A stretch of DNA of 64,000 nucleotides, from the NCBI RefSeq assembly GCF_003751085.1, contig NZ_RJJY01000002.1:1302001-1366000 (forward strand), written 5' to 3'. Every line of letters begins with the position of its first letter. Within the stretch, counting starts at the first letter, position 1. The notes below the pieces were generated by a model. The model did no database searches and had not been told where the DNA came from. It was given only the letters and a program-made list of their open reading frames with translations. The translations under genes and the position numbers were made by a program. The stretch is from Micromonospora sp. Llam0 (GTDB lineage Bacteria > Actinomycetota > Actinomycetes > Mycobacteriales > Micromonosporaceae). This document shows positions 11,498-18,906 of this stretch, in pieces.

Positions 11498-11974
11498 TTG
11501 AGCAGGCAAGCCTCCCCGCTGGCCACGCACGCGAACCTGGGCAGCCTCCTGTCACCCGCCGCCTCCGCAACGACCGTTGGGGGCATCTCCTGGAGGCAGA
11601 AGCCCGGCCTCGACAAGGAGGGCCTGGTCCAGGTCCGGATCGCCATCAAGCATCTTGCGCCGTGCGTCCTGCGGATGACGGTCCATCCGCTACGACCGAG
11701 CGAGCCCTTCCTTCAATACCTCGTCGGCGCTGGTCGTGACGGCTTCTCGGCCCGGCGGCTGTGCGTCAACCACACGCACCGACCCATCGAGGGCACCCAC
11801 AAGCATCGGACGGAACCGGCGATAGGCGACGAAGTGGCATACAAACCTACGGACATCCCCGAGGTGCCGTTGGCGCCTCGGGTCGCTCCGGGCGTCCACC
11901 GTGCGATATTTGAAGCATTCGCGGCAGAGTGCTTCGTTGAACTGGGTAGTGATTTCACCTGGGTAGAGCCGTGA
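11498..11974 (+). CDS. uncharacterised protein, DUF6978-like
   Basis: Up to 158 residues from a TTG at 11498; the first 35 residues are low-information, and the true start may be nearer 11590-11674. The central part, with CVNHTHRPIEGTHKHR and a C-terminal FEAFAAECFVELG, resembles small DUF6978-type proteins (His-rich loop followed by a short helical end) that I associate with phage and mobile-element gene pairs. It overlaps the next gene by GTGA, so the two are coupled. Function unknown; the family assignment is tentative. Confidence 0.5.
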   Translation: MSRQASPLATHANLGSLLSPAASATTVGGISWRQKPGLDKEGLVQVRIAIKHLAPCVLRMTVHPLRPSEPFLQYLVGAGRDGFSARRLCVNHTHRPIEGTHKHRTEPAIGDEVAYKPTDIPEVPLAPRVAPGVHRAIFEAFAAECFVELGSDFTWVEP

Positions 11975-12777
11975 TGGGGGTGGCGATGAACAGCGAAACC
12001 GTCGTAGGCGCGATCTTGCGGGCGGTCAACGACCAGAGCACCACCCAGGCGTACGGCGACGGCCTGCTCATCGACCTGCCGCTCACCTACGGCGACGGCG
12101 ACGCGGTGCGTCTGCTCGTCGAGCCGATCGGTGACGGCTACCGCGTCTCCGACCGGGCCACGGCGACCACCCTGCTGTCGATGGCTGGTGTCAACTTCGA
12201 CCACGGTCGCCCTGCGGAAGCGATCGCCGAAGCAGCACGCCTGTCCGGGCTGAACGGCTTCGACGCCGTGCCTGGCGAGTTGGCCACCTACGGCGCCAAG
12301 GAGTCATTGGGCGAGCTGGTGCTCGCCGTGGCGCAGGCGTCGATGCGGGTGGACCAGCTCCGATGGCTGGCGGTGAAGCAGCCGCCGGTGCGCTTCCCGG
12401 ACAGGGTCGTTACACGCATCAAGGCGTGGGCCACCAACGACGGTCGACAGGTGCGGCGCGAGGCACCGGTACGACTGAGCTCAGGTCGCCAGCGGCCCGT
12501 TACTGTGCAGGTGTCGTCCGCCAACAACGCCGCGTACGTGCAGGCGGTGAGCGGACGCGACCAGGAGCAGGCCGCCGAGCACTGCTACCACATCTTCAGC
12601 CTGTCCGAGGTGCCCAAACAGCAGCGCATCGCAGCCCTCGACGGGACACAAGACGACTGGTCGCCGGCCGTCGTCCGCGAGCTGGAGTCGGTGAGCGACG
12701 TGGAGTTCTTCGCCACCCCCCACAAGCTGGAGCAGCGCATCGACATCGTCGTACCTCCATCCCTGCAGCACAGCTGA
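11971..12777 (+). CDS. DUF1828-like domain protein
   Basis: 268 residues. Residues 25-75 (YGDGLLIDLPLTYGDGDAV, then VEPIGDGYRVSDRATATTLL) resemble the N-terminal DUF1828 domain, a compact beta fold found in phage and mobile-element proteins, followed by an all-alpha/beta C-terminal part like DUF1829 (residues 130-260). GTG 11971 overlaps the upstream stop; ATGs at 11974 and 11986 are alternatives, the last with GGGGGTGG just before it. The coupled pair opens the accessory island and may be a two-gene toxin-antitoxin or defence module; that is inference. Confidence 0.55.
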   Translation: MMGVAMNSETVVGAILRAVNDQSTTQAYGDGLLIDLPLTYGDGDAVRLLVEPIGDGYRVSDRATATTLLSMAGVNFDHGRPAEAIAEAARLSGLNGFDAVPGELATYGAKESLGELVLAVAQASMRVDQLRWLAVKQPPVRFPDRVVTRIKAWATNDGRQVRREAPVRLSSGRQRPVTVQVSSANNAAYVQAVSGRDQEQAAEHCYHIFSLSEVPKQQRIAALDGTQDDWSPAVVRELESVSDVEFFATPHKLEQRIDIVVPPSLQHS

Positions 12778-12864: not shown

Positions 12865-13752
12865 ATGGCGGAGCGGACGTATGGCGAGATCCCCGGCTAC
12901 CCACCCGGCTCGACGTTCGCGAACCGCACCGAACTCGCAGCGGCCAAGGTCCACCGGCCACTTCAGGGCGGCATCTGCGGCGGGCAGGATGGAGCAGAGT
13001 CCATCGTCGTCTCCGGCGGCTATATCGACGACGAGGACTACGGCAACGAGATCGTGTACACGGGCCAGGGCGGTAACGACCCCCGAACCAAGCGTCAGGT
13101 CGCGCATCAAGAGCTCACGCGCGGAAACCTCGGGCTTGCCAGGAGCCGACTCGATGGCAACCCGGTCCGCGTAATTCGCGGCGCGGGAGCGAACGAGACG
13201 CACTCACCCAAGGTCGGTCTCCGCTATGACGGACTCTTCAGAGTCGTTGACCACTGGAAAGACATCGGGACCGACGGGTACACTATTTGGCGCTTTCGCT
13301 TGGTGACTTACGAGAGCTTGGATCTACCCAGGATCCTCGCTCCGCCGGAGACGTCCACCCGTACCACTCGGGTCGAGGCCACAATTCAACGGCTCGTTAG
13401 AAGTGCCACTGTCGCAGCGGAGGCCAAGCGTCTTCATGACTACACATGCCAAATCTGCGGAATCAAGCTGATGACCCCCGCCGGCCCATACGCGGAAGCC
13501 GCACACATCAAGCCCCTCGGGAAGCCGCACAACGGCCCAGACGTCCTCAGCAACGTCCTCTGCCTCTGCCCGAACCATCACATACTGTTCGACAACGGAG
13601 CCCTTCAAATTGACTCGAGTGGTCGAGTCATAGACACCATGAGTAATACGTTTGTCGTTGACCTGCAGCAGACCGAAAAACACCCGCTCAACTGGTCTTT
13701 GATCGAATATCACCGAAATATTCGTCTGGCCGACGAGCAAGTCGCAGATTAG
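12865..13752 (+). CDS. SRA (YDG)-HNH modification-dependent restriction endonuclease
   Basis: 295 residues in two domains. Residues 8-155 form an SRA/YDG base-flipping domain: GYPPGSTFANRTEL, HRPLQGGICGG, SIVVSGGYIDDEDYG, IVYTGQGG, then LRYDGLFRVVDHW. Residues 190-265 form an HNH nuclease: YTCQICGIKL, AEAAHIKPLG, LCPNHHILFDNG, with a four-Cys/His zinc knuckle and the catalytic histidine in AAHI. This architecture is that of Type IV enzymes such as Sco5333 and TagI that cut DNA carrying 5-methylcytosine. Codons are visibly less GC-biased than in neighbours, suggesting transfer. No partner methylase is present, as expected for Type IV. Confidence 0.88.
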   Translation: MAERTYGEIPGYPPGSTFANRTELAAAKVHRPLQGGICGGQDGAESIVVSGGYIDDEDYGNEIVYTGQGGNDPRTKRQVAHQELTRGNLGLARSRLDGNPVRVIRGAGANETHSPKVGLRYDGLFRVVDHWKDIGTDGYTIWRFRLVTYESLDLPRILAPPETSTRTTRVEATIQRLVRSATVAAEAKRLHDYTCQICGIKLMTPAGPYAEAAHIKPLGKPHNGPDVLSNVLCLCPNHHILFDNGALQIDSSGRVIDTMSNTFVVDLQQTEKHPLNWSLIEYHRNIRLADEQVAD

Positions 13753-13828: not shown

Positions 13829-14092
13829 CTAGCCAAGGAGCCCTCGGTACTCGGATGTAGCCTTGCTAGCTTGCCGCACAAGTTTCGTAGCCTCCGTCAA
13901 GCGCTGTTGACTCTGCTCGCAGCGAGTGATTGCAGCTTGAACCAGCGGATGTCCAGCGCTAGACGAGACGGATCGCAGCATGATGAGCATTCTTTCGATC
14001 TCGTCGATCGCGCCCTGAATTCGGGCGACGACCTTGGCTGCCTGCTCCTCGGACATGGCAAGCCCGGCTTTGACTTCTTGGATGTTGGCCAA
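13829..14092 (-). CDS. small helical protein, paralogue of the gene at 15450
   Basis: 87 residues, not recognised. Predicted all-helical. It aligns end to end with the 87-residue product at 15450-15713: both start xAxIxEVKAGLA, both have GHP near the middle, CEQ in the second helix and end Y..xLG. I chose the second of two adjacent TTG codons (14092) because it equalises the two lengths and has AAGGTGA just upstream; 14095 is the alternative. It is the last gene of a five-gene minus-strand operon and converges with the SRA-HNH gene. Confidence 0.7.
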   Translation of the reverse strand: MANIQEVKAGLAMSEEQAAKVVARIQGAIDEIERMLIMLRSVSSSAGHPLVQAAITRCEQSQQRLTEATKLVRQASKATSEYRGLLG

Positions 14093-14124
14093 CAATCACC
14101 TTTCAGTCCACCATCTCGACGATC

Positions 14125-14553
14125 TCATCGGGCCGCCAGGCGCTCGGCCTTGCGCAGGAGATCGTCGAGATCGCTGTCTGTCATGTCTAGGTCGGCGACC
14201 GCATGATGGATGGCTACAATTTGCGTCTTGGGCAACTCCAGCGCCGACACATTCAAATCGGCCGCCGGATCCAGAGCAGCTCGAATCGCAGCTTCCGCAA
14301 TGCTTGGATCAACTTGGGCCGCAACGGGGTTCGCAGCTCGCATGTCTGCGACAAATTGGATCACCGCACTTTGGCTCCATTTGCCCCCGAACCTACGATC
14401 GATGGCGTAGTAGAAGACCGCAGCCAGGTAAGAGGCGAACCCGTCGCCCCAGCCCTCTTCGTCGAGCAGGCGCTCGATCCGGTCGTTTTCCTCGTGGTCG
14501 TCGCGGACGAACGTGCGGACATAGTCAACTATTTCCGGCTTGATCTCGGTCAT
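14125..14553 (-). CDS. uncharacterised 142-residue protein
   Basis: Not recognised. Acidic, mainly helical: an N-terminal part with VRTFVRDDHEENDRIERLLD, then GDGFASYLAAVFYYAIDRRF, and a C-terminal part with VAIHHAVADLDMTDSDLDDL. No signal peptide or membrane segment. ATG 14553 lies 29 nt inside the end of the 218-residue gene, so the two are likely translated together. Fourth gene of the island operon; the middle hydrophobic helix could be a partner-binding face. Confidence 0.65.
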   Translation of the reverse strand: MTEIKPEIVDYVRTFVRDDHEENDRIERLLDEEGWGDGFASYLAAVFYYAIDRRFGGKWSQSAVIQFVADMRAANPVAAQVDPSIAEAAIRAALDPAADLNVSALELPKTQIVAIHHAVADLDMTDSDLDDLLRKAERLAAR

Positions 14554-15181
14554 TTCTCTTCGCTCTCGAGTTCCTGAACTTCCTGATGAACGAATGGACG
14601 ATCAGCCCCGCGCCGGTCAATGCAATAACAACGTCGGCGACAGGGTGTTGAGAATCTTGTGCCCTTGGCTGCAGGAAAGGATTTTGTCCAGGTGCAACTG
14701 TTCCCGAATGGGTGTCCCCAGGTCTCACAAGATCCTTGATAGCAGAGGCAATGTCACGCGCCAACTGCTCACCTTGCTTGATCTCTCCCTCTTTTTCCCC
14801 GACAGCGTTGACCAGCTTACGATGAAGCTGCTCGGCACGGGATTCCTGTGTCAGCGCCTCCTCGGCTAGCCGTTCACCATCCGGCATCCCGTCAGCACTG
14901 CTAAATCGCCAACCGGGTGCCACGATCTTGAAATACGCCTCGTACTGGGCACGAGCAGCATCAAGAAGGTTCGCGTATCGCCCGCACTTGTCTGCGGCGA
15001 TTTGCGCCTCGGCCATCGCCCGACGCACTTTAGGATCGGTAGCGCCTTCAGCCGTGCGTTCATAGATGTCCCGGGCCTGTTCAGCGTCAACCGCTGCCCG
15101 TCTCGCTCGCACCGCAGCCTCGGCAAGTTGATCAAAAGCCGCCTGAACCTGGGCAAGGACAGGTTCCATGCTTGCGGTCAC
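14525..15181 (-). CDS. uncharacterised coiled-coil protein with C-terminal membrane anchor
   Basis: 218 residues from GTG 15181, which has GAGG nine bases upstream; ATG 15169 is an alternative. Residues 5-150 are charged and helical with heptad-like Ala/Gln/Glu repeats (coiled coil). A Pro/Gln-rich linker follows, then one hydrophobic helix, PVADVVIALTGAGLIVHSFI, and a basic tail RKFRNSRAKR, giving a tail-anchored, cytoplasm-facing layout. Third gene of the operon. Function unknown. Confidence 0.7.
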   Translation of the reverse strand: MTASMEPVLAQVQAAFDQLAEAAVRARRAAVDAEQARDIYERTAEGATDPKVRRAMAEAQIAADKCGRYANLLDAARAQYEAYFKIVAPGWRFSSADGMPDGERLAEEALTQESRAEQLHRKLVNAVGEKEGEIKQGEQLARDIASAIKDLVRPGDTHSGTVAPGQNPFLQPRAQDSQHPVADVVIALTGAGLIVHSFIRKFRNSRAKRNDRDQAGNS

Positions 15182-15202
15182 TATATCTGACCTCGGTACT
15201 CG

Positions 15203-15439
15203 TCAGCCAACTCGACGGCACAAATCAAATCTACGGACAGTCCGCTCGATTTCCTGCGCCGCAGCAATGAAAGTCTTGCCGGCCGCAACAACTTCATCTT
15301 TCCTACTGTCGCGGCAAGCGCTTTCGGCTAGGGCTTTGCCTTCCGCAACAACCTCTGCGGCACCCAGAAAGATGCCGCGAGCTCTGGCCATTAATGTGTT
15401 CGCCTCGACAAGCGCGGCTTTGACGTCGTCGACACTCAT
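15203..15439 (-). CDS. small helical protein, diverged relative of the 87-residue pair
   Basis: 78 residues, not recognised. Starts MSVDDVKAALVEAN, matching the EVKAGLA start of the two 87-residue proteins in this operon, then two Ala-rich helices split near residue 43 and a basic Cys-containing end. ATG 15439 lies 10 nt after the upstream stop, so the genes are in one transcript. The size and helical-hairpin look recall WXG100-type proteins, but no WxG is present. Confidence 0.68.
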   Translation of the reverse strand: MSVDDVKAALVEANTLMARARGIFLGAAEVVAEGKALAESACRDSRKDEVVAAGKTFIAAAQEIERTVRRFDLCRRVG

Positions 15440-15449
15440 CGCCTGCGCC

Positions 15450-15713
15450 TCAGCCGAGCCGATCCCCGTAGTTGCGGGTAGCCTCGTTCGCTCCGTAGAT
15501 CAGGTTGGAGACTTCATGGAGATACTCCAGGCCCTGCTCGCAGGCATTGATGGTTGCATTGATGTGGGGGTGTCCCGTGCCAGCCCCGAGCACACGGACG
15601 TCTCCCATGATCCCTTCGAGCATCTCCCGCGCGGCACGGATCTCTTGGATGGTCGCACCGCCGTGTGCCATGGCCTGGGCGAGACCAGCCTTGACCTCGT
15701 GGATGCTGGCCAT
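15450..15713 (-). CDS. small helical protein, first gene of the five-gene island operon
   Basis: 87 residues, MASIHEVKAGLA at the start, GHPHINATINACEQ in the middle, NYGDRLG at the end; predicted as two helices joined at GTGHP. The strong ribosome site GGGAGGG lies six bases before ATG 15713. It is paralogous to the terminal gene at 13829-14092. This arrangement, paralogues bracketing a membrane protein and a 142-residue protein, looks like a functional unit, but I know no characterised member. Confidence 0.7.
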   Translation of the reverse strand: MASIHEVKAGLAQAMAHGGATIQEIRAAREMLEGIMGDVRVLGAGTGHPHINATINACEQGLEYLHEVSNLIYGANEATRNYGDRLG

Positions 15714-15949: not shown

Positions 15950-16195
15950 CTACTTCGGTTCGGCGACGAAGACGCCAACGCCCTGGGCGCTCTCGACAAG
16001 GCCCTCCGTGCGCAGGGCATGCATGGCGTAGCGGATCACCGAGTCCGAGACGTTGTGCTCGGCCTTGAGCTGGGCAGTTGATGGGAGCTTGTCGCCGGGC
16101 CGCAGCTCGCCGCTCTTGATCTGAGCGCGAATGTGGTCGGCAAGCTTCTCCCACTTGGTGGCGGGCATGGGCACTCCTTGGTCTCCACCCGCCAT
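15950..16195 (-). CDS. GntR-family winged-helix regulator, DNA-binding domain only
   Basis: At most 81 residues; ATG 16168 (start MPATKWEKLADHI) is the better start by family length, giving about 72. The HTH is clear: RPGDKLPSTAQLKAEHNVSD followed by SVIRYAMHALRTEGLV and the wing GVGVFVAEP. There is no ligand domain, as in the small KorSA-like GntR repressors of actinomycete integrative elements. It is divergent from the promoter that carries a perfect inverted repeat at 16256-16275, its likely operator. Confidence 0.85.
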   Translation of the reverse strand: MAGGDQGVPMPATKWEKLADHIRAQIKSGELRPGDKLPSTAQLKAEHNVSDSVIRYAMHALRTEGLVESAQGVGVFVAEPK

Positions 16196-16543
16196 GAGAT
16201 CACGCGGATAGCTCAGGCAGCAAGATGCCGGTACAGCGAACTAGTGGTGTTGACTTAAGCGAACTACTTCGCTTAGGTTCCTCGGTGCGAGGTTTCCTCC
16301 TTGGTCTCCAACCTCAGAGGACGCCACGCGGCCGGTCGGGGCGGTCAGCGGGTCACGCCGTTGGGCGTCCCGGCCCCGAAGGTTTGCCCTGGTCGCCGTA
16401 CTGCCGAGGAGGGCTGCGGCGATCGGGGTGGGGGTGGCCCCGCCGGTTCGGCAAGCGGCAGGGCCACCCCCGTCCAGGCACACGGTCCACGACACAGCCA
16501 GACCCGAACACCCAGTAGTCAAGGAATTGGGGAGGAAGACGTG
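16196..16543. promoter_or_regulatory. long regulatory leader between GntR and the DivIVA-like gene
   Basis: 348 nt without a credible gene. It contains the promoter and inverted repeat described separately near 16250-16279, a direct repeat of GCGAACTA (16236-16243 and 16259-16266), then about 250 nt of GC-rich leader, and finally the ribosome site GGGGAGGAA before the DivIVA-like start. The long leader could carry further control; no riboswitch fold was recognised. Confidence 0.5.
16250..16279 (+). promoter_or_regulatory. promoter with GntR-type operator
   Basis: TTGACT at 16250-16255 is a good -35 box; TAGGTT at 16274-16279 is a plausible -10 with an 18-bp spacer. TAAGCGAA-CTAC-TTCGCTTA (16256-16275) is a perfect 8-bp inverted repeat with a 4-bp spacer and fills the spacer of the promoter, so a bound dimer would block RNA polymerase. 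The adjacent divergent GntR regulator is the obvious ligand. Confidence 0.75.
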
Positions 16544-16978
16544 ATGCGAGAGCTTTGGCGACGCTGGCGGCTGCGCCGGCAACGCCGCACCATGGCCGGC
16601 ACGCCGCCGCGTGACTGGCCGAACGGCAGCGGTGTCTACCGCGTACCCGCCGATGGTCGTGGCCGCAACCAGCGGCCCGCCGCGTACCGGCCGATCCGGC
16701 CCTGGCAGATCCGCGCCCACCGCTTCCCGACCGTCACCCGCAAGGCGCACGGGCCCGGCCTGGACCCCGGCGAGGTCGCCGCCTTCCTCGAACGGGTCGC
16801 CCACGACCTCGGCGTCGTCTACGCCGAGCTTGACCGCACCTACGAGCAGAACGACCGGATCAAGGACGCGCTGCGACGGTGGCAGACCAGCCAGGCCCGC
16901 GCCGCGCAGGCCACCGTCAACCTGCCCGCCTGGACCGGCGCCGGCACCACCACCGCCAGGTACGCGGGGCAGCCGTGA
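16544..16978 (+). CDS. DivIVA-domain-like protein
   Basis: 144 residues; ATG 16544 (or GTG 16541) follows GGGGAGGAA. After a strongly basic start (RRWRLRRQRR) residues 55-120 carry RPWQIRAHRFPTVTRKAHG, then LDPGEVAAFLERVAHDLG and a coiled coil VYAELDRTYEQNDRIKDALR. This is the R-x-G-[Y/L]-D-x-x-x-V-x-x-F-L pattern of DivIVA/Wag31-like domains, which bind membrane or polar protein scaffolds. The usual long coiled-coil tail is missing. It overlaps the next gene by GTGA. Confidence 0.75.
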   Translation: MRELWRRWRLRRQRRTMAGTPPRDWPNGSGVYRVPADGRGRNQRPAAYRPIRPWQIRAHRFPTVTRKAHGPGLDPGEVAAFLERVAHDLGVVYAELDRTYEQNDRIKDALRRWQTSQARAAQATVNLPAWTGAGTTTARYAGQP

Positions 16979-18906
16979 CCCACGACCCGACCCCGCACCA
17001 CACTGTCACCGTCGTCACCTGCCCCCGGTGCGACGGCAGCCCCGCCGCGGCGTGCCCGCGCTGCGGCGGGGCCGGCAAACGCCGCGCCCAGTTCGTGCTC
17101 ACCGTCGCCAACATCGACACCGCCGCCGTCGCGTCGGCGAACGTCGTACCCGGCGCGGTCACCCCGACCCGCACCGACGACGGCCGCTTCTGGTGCCTCG
17201 ACCTGGCGCCCGTCGTCGACGACCTCGCCGCCCGGGTCGGCGCCGCCCACGTCTACGACCCCGAACTACCCGGCGAACCGATCTTCGCCCCGTGGGCGGA
17301 ACTGCCCGCCGGCTGGCAACCCGACCTGCCCGACCACCAACGGCACGCCCTCGAAGCCGCACCGATCGCCGCCGAAAGCTACGAACCATGGCGGATCTGG
17401 TACGGCCGCACCGCCGCCCCACCACCGCCCGACCCGGCCCGCCGCCTCGGCGCACTCTGCGAAACCGCCGAACTGCTCTGCCTCGACCTGGTCATCGAAG
17501 CCCGCCGCGACCCACTCGCGCCCGACAGCGACCGCTTCCGCTGGGACGTCCGTTTCGAACTGCCCGGCAGCCCGGTCCCCACCGGCGTCGGCCGCTACGG
17601 CAGCTTCGCCGAGGCCGCCACCCGGGTCAGTGTCGCCCGCGCCTGCTACGAGCTGGTCGACCGCAGCCAGCACGCCCCCGCCCACCACGTCACCCCACGC
17701 CCGGCCAACGGCATCAGCCTCGGCCCGCCACCGGTCGACGTCGACCAGCTCGAACGCCGCATCGTCGCCGACTGCACCGCCCTGCTCACCGGCGAACCGA
17801 CCCCCGGCGCGCACGCCATCTGGCGCGACGGCCGCTGGTGGCACACCACCCTGCGCGCCGACGCCGACACCGACACCGACGGGCGGCTGGCCCGCTCCTG
17901 GCAGCCACCGCCACCATCGTGGCAAGGACCACCCATCCCGCACCGGCGCTGCCCCGACTGCACCCACCTGCCGCACTGGGAAGACTGCGACTGCGACCGG
18001 ATCGGCGGCTGCCGCACCTGCGGCGGCACCCACCGCATCTATCAAGGTGCGACCGTCACCATCGCCGCCGGTCGCCGCCGGGTCCGCCACCTCAACTGGC
18101 CACCCCTCGGCGGTACGCCGCCAGCCGCGCCGCCCTGGCTCGGCTACCACCCCAACGGCAAGGCAATCCACCAACTCCCGCCGGAGTACCAGCTCACCCA
18201 CCACCTCACCGAGCTCGGCCTCGACCCGACCGAGTTGGCCACCCTCGACGGGCTGACCATGTTCCTGCGCGACCACGAGCTGCTGCACGGCTACGCCACC
18301 GTCCACCGCCCCGGCGGCGACCCGCTCACCGCGTACCTGGAGAACGTCACCAACGGGCACCCCGGCGGCCGGATCCTGCTGCACGCCACCCCACCGAAGG
18401 TGCCGCCCCTGGCCACAGTGGTCACACTTGCGTACGCCCTCGGCCTGGCCCTGGTCGTCAGCGTCGCCGACCACCGCCGCAACGACGGCATCCCCTACCA
18501 GGTCCAGGGCCTCCGCTGGGGAGTCCGCTTCGCCCCACCCGACACCACCCGCCACCTCGACCGCTGGAATCCCGGAGCACACCAGCCCAGCCTGCCGAAA
18601 GCGATCACGCAAGCCCTGGAGTACCTCCCCAACGCCACCGACCACACCGTGCCCACCGACCCGACCACCCCGATCCTCGTACCGACCAACCTCGACAACA
18701 ACCCAGGCGAGCCCGACAGCCGCCTACCCGACCCGGTGCCCGCGCTCACCGCACTCGCCACCTACCACCCCGGCACCGTCGTCACCGCCGTGCTCACCCC
18801 ACAACGATGCGAAGTCCACCTACCCGACGGCCCACACCACACCAAGCTGATCGCCACCGCCGCCACCCTCGACGGAGCGGTCACCGCGGTGACGGCCGAC
18901 ATCTGA
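16975..18906 (+). CDS. uncharacterised 643-residue protein with two zinc-ribbon motifs
   Basis: Not recognised. GTG 16975 overlaps the DivIVA-like stop (GTGA). Near the N-terminus CPRCDGSPAAACPRCGGAGK is a DnaJ-type Cys-x2-Cys-x-Gly pair; near residues 325-355 a second set appears (CPDCTHL, then DCDCDRIGGCRTCGG). The rest mixes Pro/His/Thr-rich loops with short alpha/beta segments; no enzyme motif, signal peptide or membrane helix. Codon use is extremely cytosine-rich. Co-transcription with a DivIVA-like protein under a small GntR repressor recalls accessory cassettes of mobile elements. Confidence 0.75.
   Translation: MTHDPTPHHTVTVVTCPRCDGSPAAACPRCGGAGKRRAQFVLTVANIDTAAVASANVVPGAVTPTRTDDGRFWCLDLAPVVDDLAARVGAAHVYDPELPGEPIFAPWAELPAGWQPDLPDHQRHALEAAPIAAESYEPWRIWYGRTAAPPPPDPARRLGALCETAELLCLDLVIEARRDPLAPDSDRFRWDVRFELPGSPVPTGVGRYGSFAEAATRVSVARACYELVDRSQHAPAHHVTPRPANGISLGPPPVDVDQLERRIVADCTALLTGEPTPGAHAIWRDGRWWHTTLRADADTDTDGRLARSWQPPPPSWQGPPIPHRRCPDCTHLPHWEDCDCDRIGGCRTCGGTHRIYQGATVTIAAGRRRVRHLNWPPLGGTPPAAPPWLGYHPNGKAIHQLPPEYQLTHHLTELGLDPTELATLDGLTMFLRDHELLHGYATVHRPGGDPLTAYLENVTNGHPGGRILLHATPPKVPPLATVVTLAYALGLALVVSVADHRRNDGIPYQVQGLRWGVRFAPPDTTRHLDRWNPGAHQPSLPKAITQALEYLPNATDHTVPTDPTTPILVPTNLDNNPGEPDSRLPDPVPALTALATYHPGTVVTAVLTPQRCEVHLPDGPHHTKLIATAATLDGAVTAVTADI

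Follow-up and report, generated by a model that had tools for sequence, protein, structure and literature searches.

A conserved, unnamed operon of small hairpin proteins in Micromonosporaceae: a candidate conflict module that shares a domain with DddA-like toxins

What do five small, closely packed genes that reach no named family do, and do they form a unit that recurs in other genomes? The question is raised by a minus-strand gene set at positions 13829–15713 of the window, that is, the whole stretch of 64,000 nucleotides from Micromonospora sp. Llam0 analysed here. The operon is real, conserved and unnamed. Several of its proteins share a helical hairpin with DddA-like deaminase toxins of the same genome, and in outline it is likely to be a conflict module.

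The operon and its conservation

The sequence-only reading of the window had described genes of 87, 78, 218, 142 and 87 residues, and all five are present (Table 1). The first and last proteins, said to align from end to end, are 35% identical over their length, having in common EVKAGLA, GHP, CEQ and the terminal LG, and the start motif is also present in g2. The last gene starts with TTG at 14092, with AAGGTG ahead of it. The region is AT-richer as had been noted, with a GC content of 58–62% at 13–16 kb compared with about 70–77% for most of the window, and the neighbour taken for a Type IV restriction enzyme does contain SRA and HNH_2 domains. Nor can a family be named for the operon proteins: no Pfam or NCBIfam model exceeds its cut-off for any of the five, and PADLOC-DB 2.0.0 gives no match at E ≤ 1 for g1, g2, g4 or the last gene. 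A match of g3 residues 8–65 to the PADLOC model RT_UG33 (E 0.0035) was judged to be a coiled-coil chance match. The nearest named proteins are from Solwaraspora, and no description of the operon was found within the open-licence literature searched.

Table 1. Features of the operon and its neighbourhood. Counts of homologues refer to 28 distinct operon loci (the window not counted) and to 29 control loci. The controls were taken from 15 genomes, in which 18 of the operon loci also lie; the remaining 10 operon loci are in genomes that provide no controls.
Feature	Position	Strand	Description	Homologues at other loci
g1	15450–15713	–	87-aa EVK helical-hairpin protein, type 1
g2	15203–15439	–	78-aa EVK protein, type 2; C-terminal end lost by frameshift relative to 14 relatives
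g3	14525–15181	–	218 aa; long EVK-related helical hairpin at the N terminus, middle modelled with low confidence, hydrophobic stretch (181–199) and basic tail at the C terminus
g4	14125–14553	–	142 aa, predicted seven-helix soluble protein; 29-nt overlap with end of g3
Last gene (second g1-type)	13829–14092	–	87-aa EVK type 1 paralogue; closes the operon
Mini-GntR regulator	15950–16195	–	81 aa, single-domain; upstream, co-directional	12/28 operon loci; 0/29 controls
DivIVA-like ORF	16301–16978	+	225 aa, divergent; DivIVA similarity below threshold (E 0.0016, 18.8 bits, cut-off 28)	15/28 operon loci; 0/29 controls
Zinc-ribbon ORF	16879–18906	+	675 aa, CxxCxGxG-type zinc-ribbon motifs (by eye), no Pfam family	18/28 operon loci; 0/29 controls
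SRA-HNH protein	12865–13752	+	Type IV restriction-like	3/28 operon loci; that in L074 weak, with HNH_2 only in Pfam
DUF1828-like protein	11971–12777	+	268 aa, DUF1828 similarity below threshold; PADLOC candidate PDC-M24B (E 4.9e-12)	Beside the operon in L072 and L112
158-aa ORF	11498–11974	+	Adjoins the DUF1828-like gene	L112

In every comparison of the operon genes with those of two relatives (G105 and G060), changes are most numerous at the third codon position. Against G105 the changes at the first, second and third positions number 8, 7 and 44 for g3 and 3, 2 and 22 for g4; g1 and the last gene differ little from their relatives and give a weaker signal. This bias, which is marked in g3 and g4 but less so in the short genes, is evidence that the frames are translated. 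In the 14 relatives g2 has 85–88 aa, with a conserved C-terminal end that the frameshifted copy in the window has lost.

The gene order recurs within the Micromonosporaceae, in 29 distinct loci with the window included. The conserved core comprises four genes: g1 (87 aa), g2 (about 86 aa), g3 (about 215 aa) and g4 (about 142 aa). Contiguous g2-g3-g4 is found in 28 of the 29 loci, contiguous g1-g2-g3-g4 in 20 and all four gene types in 24, where the presence of g1 and g4 is biased since the loci were picked through g1 or g4 matches; g2 and g3 are unselected, apart from some rows that sit in profile alignments. No g1 was found in the remaining five loci (L075, L081, L082, L084 and L099), and more than one copy or fragment of g4 is present in eight. 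The claim of an operon thus stands as to the reality of the genes and the conservation of their order, but not as to their number: a second g1 closes the operon in only 3/29 loci (the window, L072 and L074). Genes were called with a simple caller based on GC by codon position. L085 and L115 are 100% identical and are treated as one locus, L115 being excluded; with it kept, the counts for contiguous g2-g3-g4, contiguous g1-g2-g3-g4, all four gene types and extra g4 become 29, 21, 25 and nine of 30 loci, and those for the GntR, DivIVA-like and zinc-ribbon homologues 12, 15 and 19 of 29.

Several copies of the operon occur per genome, and the genome studied here has, on its other contig, a paralogue of the operon in which the gene order is the same. 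Among 200 genomes sampled from the family, 59 contain the g4-type domain, divergent long-frame forms included. Beyond the family, the g4 profile was found in at least 3/296 genomes at the level of the class (this genome included) and the g1-type profile in at least 1/296 at that of the phylum (only this genome among the candidates scored), both being lower bounds because scoring was confined to the 13 or 18 best candidates of each genome. A protein search with the g4 profile gave 23 proteins, Stackebrandtia and Haloglycomyces among their sources, all of them hypothetical, uncharacterized or unnamed. EVK-type matches occur in 95 of 121 family genomes, with 18 at E ≤ 1 in this genome.

The EVK hairpin, g3 and g4

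Two EVK proteins of this genome are DddA-like deaminases (PF14428, E 2.4e-23 and 2.6e-20 in Pfam), and the genes downstream of them (in L101 and L102) encode Imm1 (PF14430). An EVK match lies directly upstream and on the same strand in five of the six DddA-like matches of the genome, one of them at E 0.002 only; in the sixth it is 2.6 kb away. In that sixth locus (L131, G000:C1:190520–193735) the two domains share a strand and are separated by a frame that looks like a transposase by eye; the locus is possibly an interrupted toxin gene. Among 30 DddA loci retrieved from the family, 10 have an EVK recognisable by HMM (E ≤ 0.0016), and in the other 20 inspection by eye gives helical starts of another kind, sequence of RHS type, short frames or no recognisable feature. 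This relationship is the strongest clue to the nature of the small hairpins, and on the basis of sequence it suggests that g1 and g2 are stand-alone forms of the N-terminal domain of the toxins. Pfam lists the PF14428 deaminase domain for none of the five operon proteins, and g4 has no PF14430 match, unlike the DddA partners in L101 and L102.

A stand-alone EVK gene is also present in two genera (L128 and L104) between a larger protein and a gene that, by eye, we take to be YacP/NYN-like, an arrangement suggesting that the hairpin family has an older member that is not mobile.

The g3 protein had been described as a coiled-coil protein with a single C-terminal membrane helix. Its most hydrophobic 19 residues are indeed 181–199 (Kyte–Doolittle 1.95), followed by a net-positive tail, and this layout is found in all 14 aligned g3 proteins. 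In the AF2 model the N-terminal region forms a two-helix hairpin (residues 6–44 and 50–87), and the model is poor past residue 96 (pLDDT below 50). The N-terminal region aligns with EVK in a profile–profile comparison by hhalign (E 0.00018, with a probability of only 48%), and is matched by HMM in several orthologues, at E-values down to 1.8e-8 (L081).

The g4 protein is predicted with high confidence (pLDDT 93) to consist of seven helices. The predicted fold has no significant match in the PDB, and is possibly new. In another genus (L091:6509–10187) a g4 homologue, a small helical gene and a gene that looks like g3 by eye, though without an HMM match, adjoin the gene for a Ser/Thr protein kinase that has an E3-binding domain.

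The hairpin and the g4 domain occur together in a second, differently built gene set. At seven loci with divergent g4 domains (L226–L232) a free EVK gene of about 87 aa is followed by a 212-aa gene and then by a gene of about 230 aa with glycine-rich hydrophobic stretches; the frame with the g4 domain is about 1.6–6.5 kb further on. The C-terminal part of the ∼230-aa protein matches EVK by HMM in four of the seven (L227, L228, L230 and L231); those of L226 and L229 give close alignments to two of the four, and the end of that in L232 differs. The loci were picked for a nearby EVK match, five others that were fetched (L233–L237) having none, so that 7/12 is not a rate. The recurrence of a free hairpin, a membrane-type hairpin protein and a g4 domain in a set of different construction favours a shared function of the three. 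The set is also seen at L010, L090 and L094. At L090 a single frame may fuse EVK-like hairpins to a g4 domain, a weak indication given by an EVK score of 13.5 bits with an E-value from a two-sequence search only. Long frames in L226 and L229–L232 were rejected as fusions; their N-terminal part is arginine-rich, and the codon composition (L226 only) suggests that it is non-coding.

The zinc-ribbon cassette

The zinc-ribbon gene lies close to most strong g4 loci. Of 40 such loci (bit score ≥ 84), 34 have a homologue of the 675-aa gene no more than 12 kb away (16 genomes), compared with a mean of 0.74 and at most 6 in 2000 trials of uniform random placement, a comparison that indicates clustering and not function and is inflated by inheritance within genera. 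The 34 loci belong to six genera, 20 of them to that of the window. Only 1 of 23 weaker g4-domain loci (below 84 bits) is near a zinc-ribbon gene.

Conversely, the 675-aa gene has 74 loci in 15 of the 16 genomes searched, of which 34 are with g4 and 40 without. In 20 zinc-ribbon loci chosen for the absence of g4 the DivIVA-like gene is present in 17 and the mini-GntR gene in 11. Because the zinc-ribbon loci are often without g4, with other cargo in its place, the operon appears to be a frequent cargo of a defence-type hotspot and not an obligate partner of the zinc-ribbon gene. The zinc-ribbon and DivIVA-like genes, often with the divergent mini-GntR gene, form a repeated cassette that stands beside interchangeable cargo, restriction and RloB/AbiEii-type genes among it, and that may mark defence hotspots.

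The pair formed by the 158-aa ORF and the 268-aa DUF1828-like gene (11498–12777 in the window) is also found beside the operon in Micromonospora inaquosa (L112:6369–7579).

Proposed function and related systems

We propose that g1-g2-g3-g4 form a conflict module of the toxin/immunity type. The g3 protein would be the effector: it begins with the type of hairpin found at the front of actinobacterial DddA-like toxins, and would insert into or attach to the membrane through the hydrophobic helix and basic tail at its C terminus. The g1 and g2 proteins would be small partners whose hairpins bundle with that of g3, so as to stabilise, hold or route it. The g4 protein, whose gene overlaps g3 and often has extra copies, would be a cytosolic neutraliser. 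Expression would be controlled by the upstream mini-GntR, and the module would travel as cargo of the regulator/zinc-ribbon cassette, which also carries restriction genes. The assignment of partners, effector and neutraliser follows from the layout: two small hairpins, a hairpin-headed membrane protein and an overlapping soluble gene with extra copies. The outline is likely; the roles given to the individual proteins are tentative and fall well short of an even chance. Tandem immunity genes are described in the accessible part of PMC3482391, with which the extra g4 copies in 8/29 loci are compatible.

Several features argue against such a module. The C-terminal part of g3 is not polymorphic but conserved in all 14 proteins, unlike classical polymorphic toxins; its helix is only moderately hydrophobic (Kyte–Doolittle 1.39–2.07); and the uncertain parts of the g3 analysis, the model beyond residue 96 and the profile alignment with EVK, weigh on the same side. 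The g4 protein matches no known immunity family, an immunity protein that counters a membrane toxin might itself be expected in the membrane, and no export signal was identified. The target is likewise a matter of balance, since sharing of a domain with toxins would favour action on neighbouring cells and the hotspot would favour action on the infected cell.

The second of these targets leads to an anti-phage system of the abortive-infection type, in which g1, g2 and g4 would act as a cytosolic sensor or lock and g3 as a membrane effector released on infection, protecting the population rather than attacking neighbours. This is possible if doubtful. Operon neighbourhoods do contain SRA-HNH and GmrSD_N proteins, an Eco57I/DUF7008 methylase (presumably like PglX of BREX), SLFN-g3 helicases and other restriction genes, together with ordinary metabolic genes. 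Sister cassettes lacking g4 carry C5 methylase, Vsr and Eco29kI-type genes (L212) or AAA_21 and RloB (L220, cargo of RloB/AbiEii type), all by Pfam; in others transposases, XRE regulators or nothing recognisable were seen by eye. The several copies per genome would also fit. Among 118 neighbour proteins, Pfam finds GntR in 10, HTH_31 in 9, DUF5753 in 9, HNH_2 in 4 and SAD_SRA in 2; the set comprises one window ORF and 117 of the 266 called genes, namely the two closest on each side with lengths of 70–1300 aa, and counts the four proteins of the duplicate locus twice. None of these five families is among the first 25 control families with at least two members (107 controls scanned). PADLOC counts were rejected as evidence of defence, since the highest-ranking models, of ATPase type, match control proteins as well and the counts do not separate these from neighbours; AAA_21 is as common in controls (4/107) as in neighbours (5/118). 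The operon proteins themselves gave the PADLOC results described above, none for four and a weak one for g3, and contain no recognised sensor or enzyme domain, and the domain shared with the DddA/Imm1 toxins points to interbacterial toxins.

It is unlikely that the operon is an export or tethering adaptor, in which g1 and g2 would be chaperone-like and g3 a membrane receptor serving EVK-headed (DddA-like) toxins encoded elsewhere, much as Lap1 and Lap2 serve LXG toxins. In the accessible part of PMC9600955, two helical partners (Lap1 and Lap2) bind the helical head of the LXG effector, and the position of small helical partners just ahead of a hairpin-headed protein resembles that layout: a small helical gene directly precedes the effector candidate, g2 before g3 in 28 of 29 loci (as part of the g2-g3-g4 run) and g1 before g2 in 20. 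The many EVK matches per genome and the seven loci of the second gene set would agree. EccB is present, but as it occurs in 120 of 121 family genomes, a type VII secretion system does not discriminate between readings. On the other side, WXG, Yxxx[DE] and FxxxD motifs were not seen by eye in the alignments of g1 and g2, linkage of the operon to DddA genes was not seen on a non-systematic inspection of the loci, and g4 would have no obvious role.

Membership of the WXG100 or LXG families is not supported by motifs or family matches. The 12-row EVK alignment (A4) has no Trp in the turn between the helices, which is of the [GS][TAS][GA]H type, and no Yxxx[DE] tail; Y81 is invariant and the position four residues on is an invariant L85, followed by G86. 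Neither a WXG100-type family nor the LXG domain or the Lap1/Lap2 families (DUF3130/DUF3958) is listed by Pfam for the five proteins at E up to 10, where the filters of HMMER drop most matches above about 0.1. The variable C-terminal toxin domain of LXG proteins was also not found, the 14 aligned g3 proteins having one C-terminal layout. The earlier suggestion of secretion substrates or a membrane-linked defence or toxin module is plausible, membership of WXG100 apart, as the EVK hairpin heads DddA-like toxins and the cassette is common to restriction and Abi-type genes.

A cell-envelope or regulatory module acting with the proteins next door is very improbable: a zinc-ribbon gene within 12 kb in 34/40 loci and a DivIVA-like gene in 15/28 distinct loci would suit it, but 40/74 zinc-ribbon loci are without g4 and carry unrelated cargo that includes restriction genes, and patchy presence (59/200 genomes for the g4 domain) with several copies per genome fits accessory cargo.

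The conflict module may be part of something larger, a view that we regard as rather unlikely in all its detail. The hairpin of DddA toxins would have been turned into a heteromeric machine of an undescribed conflict system, made up of two free hairpins, a hairpin effector anchored in the membrane, and a protein of possibly unseen fold that would act as neutraliser or latch, and spread through the Micromonosporaceae as frequent cargo of a new defence hotspot marked by the DivIVA-like/zinc-ribbon/mini-GntR cassette. If this is so, the N-terminal domain of DddA-like toxins from actinobacteria, an orphan so far, would gain a family, partners and a testable role; g4 would add a protein whose fold is possibly new; and the cassette, as a marker of defence islands in six genera, would offer a practical means of discovering more systems. 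Since genome-editing tools come from DddA-like deaminases, the way in which host cells hold, route and neutralise these enzymes would be of wider interest.

Four known systems may be compared with the operon. Like WXG100/PE-type ESX substrates, its small proteins are helical, of about 90–100 aa and encoded in pairs, in a genome with EccB; they differ in having a GHP-type turn and in lacking WXG, the Yxxx[DE] tail and a Pfam match. The LXG operons of type VIIb systems, as presented in the accessible part of PMC9600955, similarly combine two small helical proteins, a helical-headed effector candidate and a further small gene; the present operon has no LXG or Lap match and no FxxxD was seen, and it belongs to another phylum. 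The DddA-like/SCP1.201 deaminase toxins with Imm1 (PF14428/PF14430) share the N-terminal EVK hairpin, the genome and the family, together with a small partner gene directly after the toxin gene (Imm1 there, g4 here), whereas g3 lacks a deaminase domain, has a hydrophobic helix at its end and follows stand-alone hairpins, and g4 is not Imm1. In the AICE-like defence islands of actinomycetes, judging from the accessible part of PMC11706625, GntR and XRE regulators likewise adjoin interchangeable restriction and Abi-type cargo; the marker here is instead the cassette of DivIVA-like and 675-aa zinc-ribbon genes.
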